Origin: a virus
DNA: 20,103 nucleotides
Reading direction: 5' to 3' (one strand)
Virus record (IMG/VR): IMGVR_UViG_3300037010_001514
Location: 1 to 20,103 of that record
Part shown: positions 1,855 through 20,084 of the stretch, one piece after another
How positions within the stretch are numbered: the stretch's first letter is position 1
How the letters are laid out: each line of letters begins with the position of its first letter
Notes under the pieces: model-generated
Databases searched by the model: none
Told to the model about the DNA's origin: nothing
The model's input: only the letters and a program-made list of their open reading frames with translations
Program-made: the position numbers and the translations under genes

Positions 1855-2432
1855 GGTCGATCTCCTGGTTGAATGGTCTTGATGCTGGCAAGCGTCTCGC
1901 GCAGGCTCTGGAGCCCTGCGCGGGTACCGTCTCGCGTCTGGGATGTGTTTGGGGTACGGGTCGGCGCCGGCGCCGGCGCTACCGCGCCAACAGGGGTCTC
2001 GCCGCGGCCGCTGGCCAGGCGATCGCGTTCGGCCTGGGCGTCGGCCTTGGCCGTCATGTTGGCGAGGATTTCCAGCAGCAACCCGTGGCCCTTGAGCGGT
2101 CGCGTCAGATCCGGCTTGGCCTCAATGGCCTCGATGGCGGTCAGGTAGGCCGCTGCCGGCGCCGCCCACATGCGGCCGCCACGCTCGATGCGGGCGGTCT
2201 CCATCCAGCCGTTGATCTCGGACAGGATGGCCTCGACGCGAGACCAGCGCAGACGCTGGGAGGCCGGGGCATGAAGCGCGCAGTAGCGCAGCAGCGCCTT
2301 ACGGGTGGCTGCGTCTCCAGGGCAGCGGGCCAACTCGCGGATTACGCCGCGGGCATCGTCCTGGCCGAGGGCCACTTCCAGGCCGTACTCAGCCAGGCAG
2401 GCGGGACAGGAGATGGTGGGGAGTCCGGCCAC
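1851..2432 (-). CDS. Conserved phage protein with N-terminal CPxC motif
   Basis: About 193 residues. The N-terminus carries SCPACLAEYGLEVALGQDDA, a possible half zinc-knuckle, followed by a helical body (ALLRYCALHAPASQRLRWSR, INGWMETARIERGGRMWAAP) and a Pro/Ala/Thr-rich C-terminal tail from about residue 145. Similar CPxC-plus-helical proteins occur in early regions of Mu-like phages, but I cannot name a function. The GTG at 2432 is preferred: GGGG lies 5 bases upstream and it follows the previous stop by one base. A GTG at 2459 would add nine residues and overlap the upstream gene by 26 bases. Confidence 0.75.
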   Translation of the reverse strand: MAGLPTISCPACLAEYGLEVALGQDDARGVIRELARCPGDAATRKALLRYCALHAPASQRLRWSRVEAILSEINGWMETARIERGGRMWAAPAAAYLTAIEAIEAKPDLTRPLKGHGLLLEILANMTAKADAQAERDRLASGRGETPVGAVAPAPAPTRTPNTSQTRDGTRAGLQSLRETLASIKTIQPGDRP

Positions 2433-3871: not shown

Positions 3872-4042
3872 TCAACCCCCCATGCCGAGGAAATCATCGT
3901 TGTCGCGGAACTCGGTTTGCGGGCCATCGCTCGGCCAGACCGGGTAACGCGGGTGGCTCGCCATCCACCACACGCGCAGCAGATAGGCGACCGGCAACAT
4001 TACCAGGAGCGCGCCGACAATCATGACGGCATGGATCAGCAT
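3872..4042 (-). CDS. Small single-pass membrane protein, 56 aa
   Basis: Starts at the ATG at 4042, with GGGAGGG 8 bases upstream, and overlaps the end of the upstream gene by 7 bases. Residues 1-26 (MLIHAVMIVGALLVMLPVAY and onward) make a long hydrophobic helix. The rest is a short soluble tail with Trp and Pro ending in FRDNDDFLGMGG. No family is recognised. Possible roles include superinfection exclusion or membrane anchoring of early phage proteins, but this is inference from size and position only. Confidence 0.68.
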   Translation of the reverse strand: MLIHAVMIVGALLVMLPVAYLLRVWWMASHPRYPVWPSDGPQTEFRDNDDFLGMGG

Positions 4043-4377
4043 GGCCGTTGCCCTCCCATCACGATCTCGATCCACTGCACGCGGCAGCCCATGCGCTGGG
4101 TCTGCCAGGTCAACAGGCGGAAGACGGAGAACCCCTCGGCCCTGTAGATGCCCGCGCCCTCACGTTTGAGGCGGGCACAACCGACGCGGTGCTCGATCCA
4201 GACCAGGGGCATGATGCCGTCACGCACCTCGATATGAGTGGGACGGTAGCCGTCCGTGCGCAGCTGCTGCACGCAGGCGCGGGCGGTGGCGATACCCTGT
4301 TCCAGGGCGGATAGCACGGGCTCGGGCCGGCGGGGCGCCGGCGCTCCACGGGCGGCATTGGATGATGGGTTTCTCAT
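4036..4377 (-). CDS. Hypothetical early phage protein, 113 aa
   Basis: The ATG at 4377 is chosen because GAGGGG lies 6 bases upstream, just after the stop of the MuB-like gene. The product has a Pro/Arg/Ala-rich N-terminus (about 25 residues), then a helix (LSALEQGIATARACVQQLRT) and a beta-rich C-terminal half (THIEVRDGIMPLVWIEHRVG, then FRLLTWQTQRMGCRVQWIEI). No membrane segment is seen. I do not recognise the family. Proximity to the transposition genes suggests an early function. Confidence 0.7.
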   Translation of the reverse strand: MRNPSSNAARGAPAPRRPEPVLSALEQGIATARACVQQLRTDGYRPTHIEVRDGIMPLVWIEHRVGCARLKREGAGIYRAEGFSVFRLLTWQTQRMGCRVQWIEIVMGGQRPC

Positions 4378-4388
4378 GGTCGGCCCCC

Positions 4389-5615
4389 TCACAGTTTGGC
4401 GATGATCGCAGCGTCGACCAGGGGCGCGCCCAGGTCGGCGGCCTTGTTCATGGCGCGGGTGATTTCGACGTTGACGTGCAGCGGGTAAAGCAGGGACACC
4501 AGGCCATTGCCCACCTGGCGGCGCAGCTTGGTGCGCAGGGCATCGCAGGCATCCGGCGCCAGGATGTCAGCCATGGGCTTGTTGATGCGCTGGAACTTCA
4601 TCGCCAGGTAGGCCTCCAGCTCGCGGCCCAGGGGTTCCAGGGTGGCGATCTCCAGGCGGTTGATCAGCTCGCGCGCCTCATGCTTGTAGTTGTCCAGCTT
4701 GCTCTGCAACTCGGGCTGGCCCACCAGGATGATGCCGAGCAGGTGGCGGTGGCCTTCAACGATTTCCCAGAATCTTTTGAGCAGCTTCAGTGTGTGGATA
4801 GAGAGGTCATGCGCCTCCTCGATCACCAGCACATGGCGCTTGCCGGCCTTGTGGCTGTCGCGCAGCAGGGACTGGGCCTGGCGTTCCTTGCCCTCCGCCG
4901 TGCGGCGGATTTTCGCGTCCGGCATCAGGTCGTAGATGATGGCCTCGGTGATCATGGAAGCGGTCAGGCGCGTCTTGTCGATGATCGTGGGCTGGATGAC
5001 GACGATCTGCTGGTCGCTGTCGGCCTGGATGCTTTCGATCACGTCGCGCATCAGCACGGTCTTTCCGGCGCCGGATTCCCCCACGCCGGCAAACAGGTTG
5101 CCGTTGCGGGCGGCCCACAGCATGGCCTCGCGCATCTCGCGGTAATTGATCGGCAGGAACACGTCGTCGCTGGACAGCACATCATTCTGGAAGGGGTCGC
5201 GGAACAGGCCGAAGTGCTTGTGGGTAGAGGGGTGGATCATTTCGCGGATCTCCGAATCGGGGACTTCAGGGTGGTGGGAGTGATTGCGCGGGCCGTAGCT
5301 GGCGCCGCCGGTGCGGTAGTGCTGTGGCTGGCCGTGGGGGCGGTCGTGGTCTTCTCGCTCCCAAATCGTGGCGATTTCTTCCTCGCCGACCTGGCGCTCG
5401 CGCAACATCGTCTCGGTGACGCGGCGGATATCTGCCTCGGTGGTGGTCACCGGCCAGACGCCACGGTTCAGCAGGACATTGATAGCGACCCGAGACAACA
5501 GCTTCCCGCTGGGCTGGCGGATGCACTCGGCCAGTTCTTCCTGGCTGATGCCGTGTTCGCGCAGCACCGTCTTCAGGCGGATGGCGAGGTGAGGGGCATT
5601 GCGGGTGTTGGACAT
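4389..5615 (-). CDS. MuB-like AAA+ ATPase (transposition target-selection protein)
   Basis: 408 residues. An N-terminal helix-turn-helix region (IRLKTVLREHGISQEELAEC) is followed by a linker and an AAA_22/ExeA-type ATPase domain. Walker A is GESGAGKT at about 179-186, Walker B is HVLVIEEAHDL at about 261-271, and the sensor strand GIILVGQPEL is at about 294-303. A conserved ELINRLEIATLEPL follows. In Mu-like phages this ATPase binds target DNA, stimulates the transposase and gives target immunity. Motif layout fits the BcepMu/TniB/ExeA-type subgroup better than classical MuB. The ATG at 5615 has AAGGTGG upstream and overlaps the preceding stop (TGATG). It lies one small gene downstream of the transposase in the same operon. 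Confidence 0.92.
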   Translation of the reverse strand: MSNTRNAPHLAIRLKTVLREHGISQEELAECIRQPSGKLLSRVAINVLLNRGVWPVTTTEADIRRVTETMLRERQVGEEEIATIWEREDHDRPHGQPQHYRTGGASYGPRNHSHHPEVPDSEIREMIHPSTHKHFGLFRDPFQNDVLSSDDVFLPINYREMREAMLWAARNGNLFAGVGESGAGKTVLMRDVIESIQADSDQQIVVIQPTIIDKTRLTASMITEAIIYDLMPDAKIRRTAEGKERQAQSLLRDSHKAGKRHVLVIEEAHDLSIHTLKLLKRFWEIVEGHRHLLGIILVGQPELQSKLDNYKHEARELINRLEIATLEPLGRELEAYLAMKFQRINKPMADILAPDACDALRTKLRRQVGNGLVSLLYPLHVNVEITRAMNKAADLGAPLVDAAIIAKL

Positions 5616-16218: not shown

Positions 16219-16499
16219 CCCGACTCGATGATTTGGTGACTGAAACCCGCCGCCGGGCGCTGCTCGACATCCTCGCCGAGGCGCAGGACTACGAGGAGGG
16301 GGAATCCATGCTGGGCATGGTGCTGGCCTCCATGCGCTTGCCGGGCGGATACGTTGCTGAGGATCTGGCCTGGCTGGCGCATGCCGACCTGGTCACCCTG
16401 TCCGGAGTAGTGGGCAGGCGCCGCGCCAAGCTCACGGCACTCGGCCTGGATGTTTCGCACGGCGCGGTGCGCGCCGAGGGTGTGGGGCGGAAACTCTGA
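16215..16499 (+). CDS. VpaChn25_0724-type small phage protein (winged-helix-like)
   Basis: 94 residues: ETRRRALLDILAEAQDYEEG, ESMLGMVLASMRLPGGYVAE, DLAWLAHADLVTLSGVVGRR, then RAKLTALGLDVSHGAV. The order of helices and the RAKLTALGLDVSHG-A end are the hallmark of a small family found just before Mu gp27-type proteins, which looks like an ArsR-type winged helix. It may bind DNA at packaging or act as a late regulator. Overlapping start and stop codons place it firmly in the late operon. Confidence 0.82.
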   Translation: MTRLDDLVTETRRRALLDILAEAQDYEEGESMLGMVLASMRLPGGYVAEDLAWLAHADLVTLSGVVGRRRAKLTALGLDVSHGAVRAEGVGRKL

Positions 16500-17023
16500 T
16501 GGGCCGCAAATCCGCCATCCGGCAGCTCGACCCCGCCATCCGCGAGGCGGTGGATACCGCCATCCGCGAGGGCCGCGCCACCATCGAGGCGATCACCACG
16601 CTCATCCAGGGCATGGGCGCTACGGTCAGCCGCTCCGCCGTGGGCCGCTACAAGCTCCAGGCCGAAAGCCAGATGCAGCGCTACCGCGAGGCGCAGGAAG
16701 TGGCCAAGGTCTGGATCGGCCGCCTGGAGGCCGACCCGGAAGGCGACGTCGGCCGCCTGCTGCCCGAGATGCTTCGCGCCGTCGCCTTCCAGAGCCTGGC
16801 CAACCTGGGCGAGGACGGCGAGGCGGTGGACAGTAAAGAGATCGCGCTCCTCGCCCGGGCCATCAAGGACGCCGCCGGCGCCACCAAGACCAGCGTCGAG
16901 GTGGAGCGCCTGCGCCGCGAGATGCGTGCGGCCCTGGCGAAGGTGGAGCAGGCGGTGGACCAATCGGCCCGCGACCCGGCCGCGCTGAAGCGCGCGATTG
17001 CAGAGGCGTATGGCCTCCTGTAG
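16499..17023 (+). CDS. Mu gp27-like small terminase subunit (DUF3486)
   Basis: 174 residues. The sequence begins MGRKSAIRQLDPAIREAVDT, then has an HTH (ATIEAITTLIQGMGATVSRS, AVGRYKLQAE) and a long helical region with ALARAIKDAAGATKTSVEVE, RLRREMRAAL. This matches the Mu gp27/DUF3486 family, located directly upstream of the large terminase. It likely recognises the phage end for headful packaging. The ATG shares one base with the previous stop (TGATG). Confidence 0.9.
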   Translation: MGRKSAIRQLDPAIREAVDTAIREGRATIEAITTLIQGMGATVSRSAVGRYKLQAESQMQRYREAQEVAKVWIGRLEADPEGDVGRLLPEMLRAVAFQSLANLGEDGEAVDSKEIALLARAIKDAAGATKTSVEVERLRREMRAALAKVEQAVDQSARDPAALKRAIAEAYGLL

Positions 17024-18404
17024 CGCCGGCGCCGCGCCGGCTCATTCTTCCGATCAGCCCGTTGATGCCGGCGAGGGCGCTGTCGCTTCGGTCCAGCTCT
17101 ACCCCTACCAACGCGCCTGGCTGGAAGACCCGGCGCGTTTCGCCGTGGGCATGTTCGCCCGACAGACCGGCAAGACCTGGACCACCACGCTGGGCATCGT
17201 CCTGGATTGTGTGAAGGCGGAGCTTGACGGCAAGCGCACCCGCTGGGTGATCCTCTCCCGCGGCGAGCGCCAGGCCAGCGAGGCCATGGTCGAGGGCGTA
17301 CAGCGCCACCTGGCCGCCATCGGCGTGCTGTTCGAAGCGCACGCCTACGAGTTCGAACCCGGCATCAAGGCCCTGGAAGTCGCCCTCCCCGGTGGCAGCC
17401 GCATCACCGCACTCCCGGCCAGCCCGGACACCGCCCGCGGTTTCAGCGCCAACGTGATGCTCGACGAGTTCGCCTTCCACAAGGATTCCCGCGCCATCTG
17501 GAAGGCCCTGTTCCCGGTCATTTCCGCCGGCTGGAAAATCCGCGTCGTCTCCACCCCCAACGGCAAGGGCAACAAGTTCTACGAGCTGATGACCGACCAG
17601 GCGCTGGCGGAGGTCTGGAGCCGCCACACCGTGGACATCTACCAGGCCGTGGCGGACGGCCTGCCGCGCAATATCGACGAGCTGCGCGCCGGCATCAACG
17701 ACGCCGACGCCTGGTCGCAAGAATTCGAACTCAAGTGGCTGGACGAAGCCAGCGCCTGGCTCGACTACGAGTTGATCGACGGCTGCGAACACGACCAGGC
17801 TGGCCTGCCCGCGAATTACACCGGCCTACCCGCCTTCGTTGGCGTCGACATCGCCGCCCGCAACGACCTGTTCGTCATCGCCGTGCTGGAGCTGGTGGGC
17901 GACGTGCTCTGGGTGCGCGAGCTGATCGTGCGCCAGCGCATCAGCTTCGCCGAGCAGGCCAGCCTGCTCGATGGCGTCATGCGCCGCTACAACGTGATCC
18001 GGGCCGCCATGGACCAAACCGGCATGGGCGAGATGCCCGTCGAAGATGCCAAGCGCCGCCACGGCGATCTGCGCGTCGAGGGCGTGCTGTTCAGCCCGGC
18101 GCGCAAGCTCGACATGGCCACGGCGCTCAAGGAACGCATGCAGGATCGCCAGTTGCGCATTCCGCAGGGCGATACGCTGTTGCGCGCCGATCTGCACGCC
18201 ATCCAGAAACAGGTGGGCGCTACCGGACAACAGCGCCTGGTCTCCGATGGTGAAACCGATGGCCACGCCGACCGCTTCTGGGCGATGGCATTGGCCTGCT
18301 CGGCGGCGGCCGGCCTGGTCGAGTGCGCCACCGAGGGCTTCCGCGCCATTTCCCGCAATTCCCTGCCCGGCACCCTCGGCGGCGCTTCGCGGAGGATGCT
18401 GTGA
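17010..18404 (+). CDS. Mu gp28-like large terminase subunit
   Basis: 464 residues. The ATG at 17010 has AGAGG directly upstream and overlaps the small subunit gene by 14 bases. Motor motifs are visible: adenine-side YPYQRAWL (31-38), Walker A-type RQTGKT (51-56), Walker B NVMLDEFAF (DE at 152-153) and coupling motif STPNG (181-185). The C-terminal nuclease region has VGVDIAARNDLFV (D280) and DQTGMGE. It would cut and pump phage DNA into proheads. The gene looks complete and typical in length for Mu-like phages. Confidence 0.94.
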   Translation: MASCSAGAAPAHSSDQPVDAGEGAVASVQLYPYQRAWLEDPARFAVGMFARQTGKTWTTTLGIVLDCVKAELDGKRTRWVILSRGERQASEAMVEGVQRHLAAIGVLFEAHAYEFEPGIKALEVALPGGSRITALPASPDTARGFSANVMLDEFAFHKDSRAIWKALFPVISAGWKIRVVSTPNGKGNKFYELMTDQALAEVWSRHTVDIYQAVADGLPRNIDELRAGINDADAWSQEFELKWLDEASAWLDYELIDGCEHDQAGLPANYTGLPAFVGVDIAARNDLFVIAVLELVGDVLWVRELIVRQRISFAEQASLLDGVMRRYNVIRAAMDQTGMGEMPVEDAKRRHGDLRVEGVLFSPARKLDMATALKERMQDRQLRIPQGDTLLRADLHAIQKQVGATGQQRLVSDGETDGHADRFWAMALACSAAAGLVECATEGFRAISRNSLPGTLGGASRRML

Positions 18405-18509: not shown

Positions 18510-20084
18510 ATGGCGCAAATTCTCGACTCTCGCGGCAACCCCATCGACCGGGGCACGCTCACCACCTCGCAGACCGCCGAAGTGGCGACCCTGCGCAATG
18601 CCTTTCTCATGCCGTGGATCAACGGCCTCACCCCGGCCATGCTGGCGGACTACCTGTACCGTGCCGATCAGGGGTTTCTCACCGCCCAGCACCGCGTCTT
18701 CGCCGACATGGAAGAGCGCGATCCGCACCTGGCAGCGGAGATGGGCAAGCGCAAGCAGGCCATCGTCAACCTGGACTGGCAGCTTGTCCCCCCACCCGAT
18801 GCCACCGCCGCCGAGAAAGCCACCGCTCAGTGGGCCGATGGCATCCTGCGCAGCGGCATCGAGAGCTTCGAGGATCTGCTGGTGGCCTGCCAGGATGCCA
18901 TCGGCCACGGCTTCGCACCGATCGAACTGGAATGGCAGATGCAGGGCGGCGAGCTGCTGCCCGTCTACTACCCCCGGCCCCAGGAGTGGTTCCGCCTGTC
19001 CGTGGATCGCCGCGCGCTGCATATCATGGACGGCAGCGCCGAGGGCGCACCGCTCAAGCCCTTCGGCTGGATCGTCCACCAGCCGGGCAAGGCCAAGACC
19101 GGTTACCTCGGGCGCCTGGGCCTGCACCGGGTGGTCTCGTGGCCCTTCCTTTACAAGGCCTATGCCATCAGCGACTTCGCCGAGTTCCTGGAGACTTTCG
19201 GTCTGCCCATCATCGTCGGCAAATACGGCCAGGGGGCTTCCGCCGAGCAGAAGAACAGCCTCTACGACGCCGTCTCTGCCCTGGGCCACGACGCCCGCGC
19301 CATCATGCCGGTGGACATGCAGCTTGAGATTAGCAAGATCGCCGCCGGCGGCGGTGGCGGCACTCCCCACCTGGACATGATCCACTGGGCCGACGACGCC
19401 CAGAGCAAGGCCATCCTGGGCCAGACCCTGAGCGCCGAGGCCAAGAGCACCGGCATGGGCAGTGGCGTGGCCAAGCTGCACGACCAGGTGCGCCTGGATA
19501 TCCAGCGCGCCGACGCCCGCCAGGTAGCGGACACCCTGACGCGGGATCTGATCTACCCGTTGATCGCGCTGAACCGCGGCATCGCCGACATGCGCCGCTG
19601 CCCGCGCCTGGTGTTCGACACCAACGACCTCCAGGACATCGCCGTCTACGCCAACGCCCTGCCGGCCCTGTCCGGCCTCATGGACATCCCGGCCGACTGG
19701 GTGCGGGAACGCCTGGGCATCCCGGCGCCGGTGGAAGGCGAGGACGTGCTGAAGGCGCCGGCCGCGCCCCCGGCCCAGGGGAAAACGCAGGTGCTGGCGG
19801 GGCTCTCCGTAGCGCAGGCTTCCAGCCTGCTGCCCGCGTCTACGGTCTCCGACCCGCCCGACGCCCAGTCGCGCCTGGCGGATAACCTTGTGCGTTCAGC
19901 GGCGCCGGCCATGGGCAAAATCCTGGATGACGTACGCCAGCTGGTGGACGAAGCCCACAGCCTCCAGGCACTCCAGGCCGTCCTGACTCAGGCCTACGGC
20001 CATATGGACAGCGTCGACCTGACCCGGATCATGGAACTCGCCTTCGCCGTCGCCGACCTGGCAGGCCTCGCCGATCATGGCTGA
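18510..20084 (+). CDS. Mu gp29-like portal protein (DUF935)
   Basis: 524 residues. The ATG at 18510 gives the typical start MAQILDSRGNPIDRGTLTTS; GGA lies 7-9 bases upstream. Conserved DUF935 parts follow: DLYR-like DYLYRADQGFLTAQHRVFAD, MEERDPHLAAEMGKRKQAIV, HGFAPIELEWQMQGGELLPV, GLPIIVGKYGQGASAEQKNS and KLHDQVRLDIQRADARQVAD. The portal forms the dodecameric DNA entry ring of the head. Near residues 433-446 the frame passes through a nested palindrome (19807-19845) encoding roughly SVAQASSLLPAS, apparently an in-frame insertion in the variable linker. The gene is otherwise complete. Confidence 0.94.
   Translation: MAQILDSRGNPIDRGTLTTSQTAEVATLRNAFLMPWINGLTPAMLADYLYRADQGFLTAQHRVFADMEERDPHLAAEMGKRKQAIVNLDWQLVPPPDATAAEKATAQWADGILRSGIESFEDLLVACQDAIGHGFAPIELEWQMQGGELLPVYYPRPQEWFRLSVDRRALHIMDGSAEGAPLKPFGWIVHQPGKAKTGYLGRLGLHRVVSWPFLYKAYAISDFAEFLETFGLPIIVGKYGQGASAEQKNSLYDAVSALGHDARAIMPVDMQLEISKIAAGGGGGTPHLDMIHWADDAQSKAILGQTLSAEAKSTGMGSGVAKLHDQVRLDIQRADARQVADTLTRDLIYPLIALNRGIADMRRCPRLVFDTNDLQDIAVYANALPALSGLMDIPADWVRERLGIPAPVEGEDVLKAPAAPPAQGKTQVLAGLSVAQASSLLPASTVSDPPDAQSRLADNLVRSAAPAMGKILDDVRQLVDEAHSLQALQAVLTQAYGHMDSVDLTRIMELAFAVADLAGLADHG
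19807..19845. repeat. Nested palindromic element inside the portal gene
   Basis: Outer arms CCGTAG (19807-19812) and CTACGG (19840-19845) enclose an inner perfect stem GCAGGCT-TCC-AGCCTGC (19814-19830). The AGGCTTCCAGCCTG core is like interspersed palindromic repeats I recall from several unrelated bacterial genomes. Here it is read through in frame. It occurs once in the window. Identity as a dispersed element is from memory, not searched. Confidence 0.5.

Follow-up and report, generated by a model that had tools for sequence, protein, structure and literature searches.

A GTAG-tagged REP element, probably of host origin, lies in frame in the portal gene of a Mu-like phage

The window, i.e., the whole stretch of 20,103 nucleotides analysed here, is a partial IMG/VR virus record whose source is a Mu-like phage. 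Apart from the portal gene, Pfam matches were obtained for Mu gp27, a terminase, GemA, DUF3164 and an AAA ATPase. The portal assignment is further supported by a match to the solved portal structure 8rka; the portal of phage MP22 is 42% identical and the nearest IMG/VR portal is 56% identical to that of the window. No closer portal was found among 149 relatives of genome G021, a proteobacterium discussed below. A 39-bp palindrome lies within this gene (19807-19845, CCGTAGCGCAGGCTTCCAGCCTGCTGCCCGCGTCTACGG), with outer arms CCGTAG/CTACGG around an inner stem of 7 bp and a TCC loop (19814-19830). Read in frame, the element codes for about residues 434–445 (VAQASSLLPAST) and leaves the portal ORF intact. 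The sequence-only reading had described an in-frame palindrome with these arms, stem and loop in the variable part of the portal, and both descriptions hold: the sequence is as stated, and the element falls C-terminal of the Pfam Portal_Mu domain (residues 62–404), in a hypervariable linker.

Table 1. Features of the portal element and related elements, with positions in the window unless another contig is named.
Feature	Position	Strand	Evidence
Mu-type portal gene, 524 aa, bearing the element	18510-20084	+	PF06074 Portal_Mu, E 2.3e-91
GTAG-tagged REP unit: GTAG tag, C, 7-bp stem with TCC loop	19809-19830	+	exact 22-mer multi-copy elsewhere
TGCCCGCGTCTAC, probable remnant of the 3' end of a head-to-head REP dimer, outer CTAC kept	19831-19843	+	
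TCTCCG, left copy of 6-bp direct repeat around the portal element	19804-19809	+	
TCTCCG, right copy of 6-bp direct repeat around the portal element	19846-19851	+	
Second REP, sister type, GTAGCGCCGGCGCCGCGCCGGC	17020-17041	+	relaxed scan
Possible decayed REP, GTAGCGCCGGCGCCGGC, in linker of early gene 1851-2459	1963-1982	-	
Exact REP in portal linker of the G011 prophage	G011:C12:2411-2432	-	

Within the palindrome, an unpaired GTAG tag (19809-19812) is followed by one base and then by the 7-bp stem with its 3-nt loop. This unit is the 22-mer GTAGC+GCAGGCTTCCAGCCTGC, i.e., GTAGCGCAGGCTTCCAGCCTGC, and it is read in the phase GTA GCG CAG GCT TCC AGC CTG C as VAQASSL (residues 434–440). The palindrome occurs once in this virus record. 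The base preceding its GTAG is C, against T in 88% of the copies of the family described below. Only one hairpin is present at the site (19814-19830) and it does not make up a full doublet, which identifies a REP singlet rather than a REPIN; given that the second hairpin is absent, the portal copy is not itself a typical mobile unit. However, the stretch that follows, TGCCCGCGTCTAC, differs from the dimer end of the REP family, TGCCTGCGCTAC, by one substitution and one insertion (the copy at L110, which served for this comparison, reads GTAGC..CTGCtgccgctgaaagacgcaggccaggatgcctgcgctac). It resembles an eroded doublet end, and a REP inserted here would probably have been a doublet.

The direct repeat TCTCCG has a period of 42 nt, or 14 codons, and would arise by chance with a probability of about 3%. 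Around dimers of the REP family, flanking repeats are at most slightly in excess (p 0.025), and given both values we do not claim this pair as a target-site duplication.

The strength of the palindrome was rejected as evidence. Stems of at least 7 bp are frequent in this GC-rich window (23 observed vs 14 expected under a Markov model), and the nesting of one stem in another recurs at several other window sites as well as in 48 of 100 random sequences, so that the shape of the portal palindrome is no rarer than chance. Its single-strand fold reaches a z of -2.95. The informative property of the element is its sequence, not its shape: by our own estimate, GTAGCGCAGGCTTCCAGCCTGC is expected about 1e-8 times per 20 kb.

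The 17-bp palindrome was found in 28 IMG/VR stretches, many of them from metagenome 3300027921 and several with GTAGC immediately 5' of it. A 25-mer, GTAGCGCAGGCTTCCAGCCTGCTGC, matched six stretches of the GTDB genome set, from one uncultured proteobacterium (L110), Opitutaceae and an acidobacterium. Allowing up to 2 mismatches, we counted 14, 36, only 2, 92 and 62 copies of the 22-mer in genomes G001 to G005, respectively, and none with the reversed control; the Opitutaceae carry 36–92 copies. The exact 22-mer was present in nine of 101 relatives of G001, itself included (G001, G010, G011, G013, G015, G021, G022, G024 and G027), with a maximum of 35 copies in G021 and none for the control. 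It should be noted that the genomes used for these counts represent the clade to which the host most likely belongs. In the genomes behind loci L110–L115, the copies often form head-to-head dimers of the type GTAGC-hairpin-spacer-hairpin-GCTAC. A sister type, GTAGC+GCCGGC-N5-GCCGGC (GTAGCGCCGGC-N5-GCCGGC), reaches 47–179 copies per genome in seven members of the same proteobacterial clade (G010, G011, G015, G021, G022, G024 and G027), with no control hit.

Given that a GTAG tag in front of a short stem-loop is the signature of a known superfamily (PMC3733652), the portal element is, as judged from its sequence, a GTAG-tagged REP. A resemblance to interspersed palindromes of unrelated genomes had been proposed from the window alone, and it proved to be an exact 22-base identity with a REP that is multi-copy in a proteobacterial clade and in Opitutaceae. 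Many copies thus exist in other genomes, and no relative compared shows the same residues encoded by dissimilar DNA. Among named phages, nothing was found beyond a weak 25-bp match to the portal element in a Burkholderia phage, and the literature searched contained no report of the palindrome string.

Two further observations concern the family as a whole. The 22-mer is common to Opitutaceae, the acidobacterium and proteobacteria (G001–G005, loci L110–L115), which suggests transfer between phyla. At L235 and L224, single hairpins carry the tag at either end (GTAGC-hairpin-GCTAC), which makes these REPs palindromic throughout.

The portal element is not the only member of this population in the window. 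With its TAG (17021-17023), the second REP supplies the stop codon of the Mu gp27 gene (16499-17023), and it immediately precedes the terminase coding region; an identical copy of GTAGCGCCGGCGCCGCGCCGGC lies at G022:C8:10228-10249. From the copy numbers of both REP types, the two elements of the window are members of the REP population found in one proteobacterial clade. The possible decayed REP in the early gene lies at a linker that holds a full sister-type dimer in frame (GCGTCCCGC) in two homologues, those of L193 (a contig from metagenome 3300027921) and of the G011 prophage (L202). Over 565 bp, L193 has 86% identity to the window, and it also has prophage DNA in common with G011; the window terminase is 70% identical to that of L128 (G024), which stands beside a G024 portal. 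This shared phage DNA ties the window to phages of that proteobacterial clade and points to a member of the clade as the likely host. A weak REP-like hairpin with an imperfect tag, GGAGCGCCGGCGCCCCGCCGGC at 4326-4347 (minus strand), was also seen near the start of ORF 4036-4392.

Copies of the REP recur in frame in other genes, of phages as well as of bacteria. The portal of the G011 prophage (L131/L202) is a different Mu portal (Portal_Mu E 6.7e-98; 26% identity to that of the window), and the exact 22-mer lies in frame in its C-terminal linker (AEFAAP-VAQASSLP-RGADED). Moreover, a contig from metagenome 3300027921 (L091) carries a full REP dimer in frame (772-823) in a Mu-like prophage I protein, a protease/scaffold whose PF10123 match (E 3.6e-91) spans the dimer. 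The 22-mer is also found towards the end of a small gene that has no Pfam match, at L094 and at the related G027 locus L181. In the host clade, in-frame REPs occur in nifJ, in the hinge region of smc and in an HI0933-like oxidoreductase gene (L117, L110, L174, L224, L230). In a codon-model survey, nine of 90 sampled elements lay inside genes, and eight of the nine had the VAQASSL phase. As related genomes in part contribute the same site more than once, fewer than nine of these are independent. A comparison of NifJ and phage portal structures for a gain in length was not clear-cut.

In the AlphaFold model of the window portal, whose mean pLDDT is only 61.8, residues 414–447 have a pLDDT below 50 and form a coil between helices 395–402 and 452–481. 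The residues encoded by the element are therefore predicted to sit in a low-confidence, disordered linker between the core and the C-terminal helices, a setting that fits tolerance of added residues.

We also considered what could move such an element. In G005, a RAYT gene (the PF01797 ORF of L160) has REP dimers of the family described here on both sides (1041-1096 and 1823-1875). In G001, the RAYT gene (the PF01797 ORF of L146) is preceded by a REP at 1219 and followed by an inverted hairpin at the contig end. At this locus (1129-1812), moreover, the reading frame of the RAYT gene continues that of a short coding start upstream, which resembles the start of another gene, and the RAYT unit looks as if it had landed in that gene. 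In vitro, the RAYTs of E. coli, Stenotrophomonas and Marinomonas cut GTAG REPs in single-stranded form, usually at a CT next to the REP (PMC8266576), and REP singlets are regarded as remnants of doublets (PMC3116915). A host RAYT may well have moved the portal REP.

Taken together, these data lead us to propose, with a probability of about 0.8, that a host REP moved by a host RAYT landed in a permissive linker of the portal; the event, its agent, the tolerance of the protein and the identity of the host are what we infer here. Under this proposal, the GTAG-tagged REP of the host would be a non-autonomous hairpin repeat spread by host-encoded single-strand transposases (RAYT, TnpA_REP, HUH/Y1), and it would have reached the portal linker when a REP-bearing cell harboured the Mu-like phage, either integrated or in replication. 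The inserted unit would probably have been a head-to-head dimer (REPIN), most of whose second hairpin was subsequently lost. Because the VAQASSL phase has no stop, the portal would have gained a dozen harmless residues, and selection would keep the portal copy. The initial suggestion, that an essential gene tolerates a small mobile palindrome inserted in frame, agrees with these data, namely the REP identity, the association with RAYT genes and the other in-frame copies.

The comparison of linkers bears on whether an insertion took place and on the first of three alternatives. No empty-site orthologue of the portal was found, the nearest portals (about 57% identical) having hypervariable linkers that do not align, and so the insertion is one that we infer. 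The linker of the window portal has about 46 residues, within the length range of its relatives; an insertion of 10–15 residues is thus not readable from an alignment, and we dropped an alignment gap as proof, linker length and composition being too variable. Recombination rather than transposition would also bring a REP to this place, if REP-bearing linker DNA had been swapped with a locus of the host or of a prophage and the REP had provided the homology at a module boundary. The portal tail is indeed modular: L098 and the G011 prophage have a C-terminal module in common (74% DNA identity) on different portal cores, with homology that begins 25 nt after the G011 REP, and the similarity of the window DNA to other portals ends before the linker. 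However, portal tails vary at the same place in phages without any REP, and no donor was found that shares DNA on both sides of the window element, so that we consider recombination unlikely.

We regard it as very improbable that the hairpin is kept for a role in the portal mRNA or DNA, such as the roles in pausing, stability or protein binding suggested for intergenic REPs. In the general view, REPs are transcribed and act downstream of genes (PMC3733652), and the second REP of the window stands exactly at a gene end, but other portals of the same family lack such a hairpin and the in-gene copies lie in unrelated genes and at unrelated positions. Finally, a chance palindrome in a GC-rich gene with a coincidental REP likeness, for which the abundance of stem-loops of this size in the window speaks, has a negligible probability in view of the exact 22-base match to a dispersed family, the zero control hits, the second member in the window and the repeated phage examples.

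Beyond the transfer of a host REP by a host RAYT, these elements might be recurrent passengers of the Mu-like phages of this clade, lodged in virion linkers (the portal at least twice, and the protease) and nearly always in the VAQASSL phase. They would perhaps act as portable linker cassettes free of stops, or as blocks of homology that help to shuffle phage modules and bring host REPs from cell to cell; we hold this broader idea to be speculative and quite unlikely.

REPs are usually regarded as extragenic and host-bound. The presence of a REP family in frame in several phage genes, twice in a portal linker, would demonstrate that repeats linked to RAYTs find their way into phage genomes. 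If so, phages can ferry REPs between hosts, and in-frame phage REPs would mark where virion proteins tolerate insertions, that is, naturally selected sites in phage portals.

Several known systems can be compared with these elements. The Rickettsia palindromic elements, as cited in PMC3733652, are likewise palindromic repeats tolerated in frame in protein genes. They differ in that they belong to another sequence class (RPE-4 and RPE-6 are among the CGTC repeats, for which no dedicated transposase has been found; PMC3733652) and in that their hosts are obligately intracellular. The REPIN/RAYT system (PMC3116915, PMC8266576) has, as here, inverted REP doublets with a spacer as the mobile unit, RAYT genes flanked by their cognate REP, and singlets that are remnants, whereas the portal copy has one hairpin, with an outer tag at each end, and lies on a phage genome instead of in host extragenic space. 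No published account that brings together REPIN, prophage and portal was found in the literature searched. Also closely related is the GTAG REP superfamily with its 24 families (Di Nocera et al. 2013, PMC3733652), which has the same GTAG tag, a short perfect stem, a 3-nt loop and head-to-head dimers. Its members likewise provide the TAG stop of a preceding gene and include some in-frame copies in genes, although no phage or prophage genes appear in the main text of that paper. In-gene GTAG REPs are thus already known, and it is their recurrence in phage virion genes that is new.
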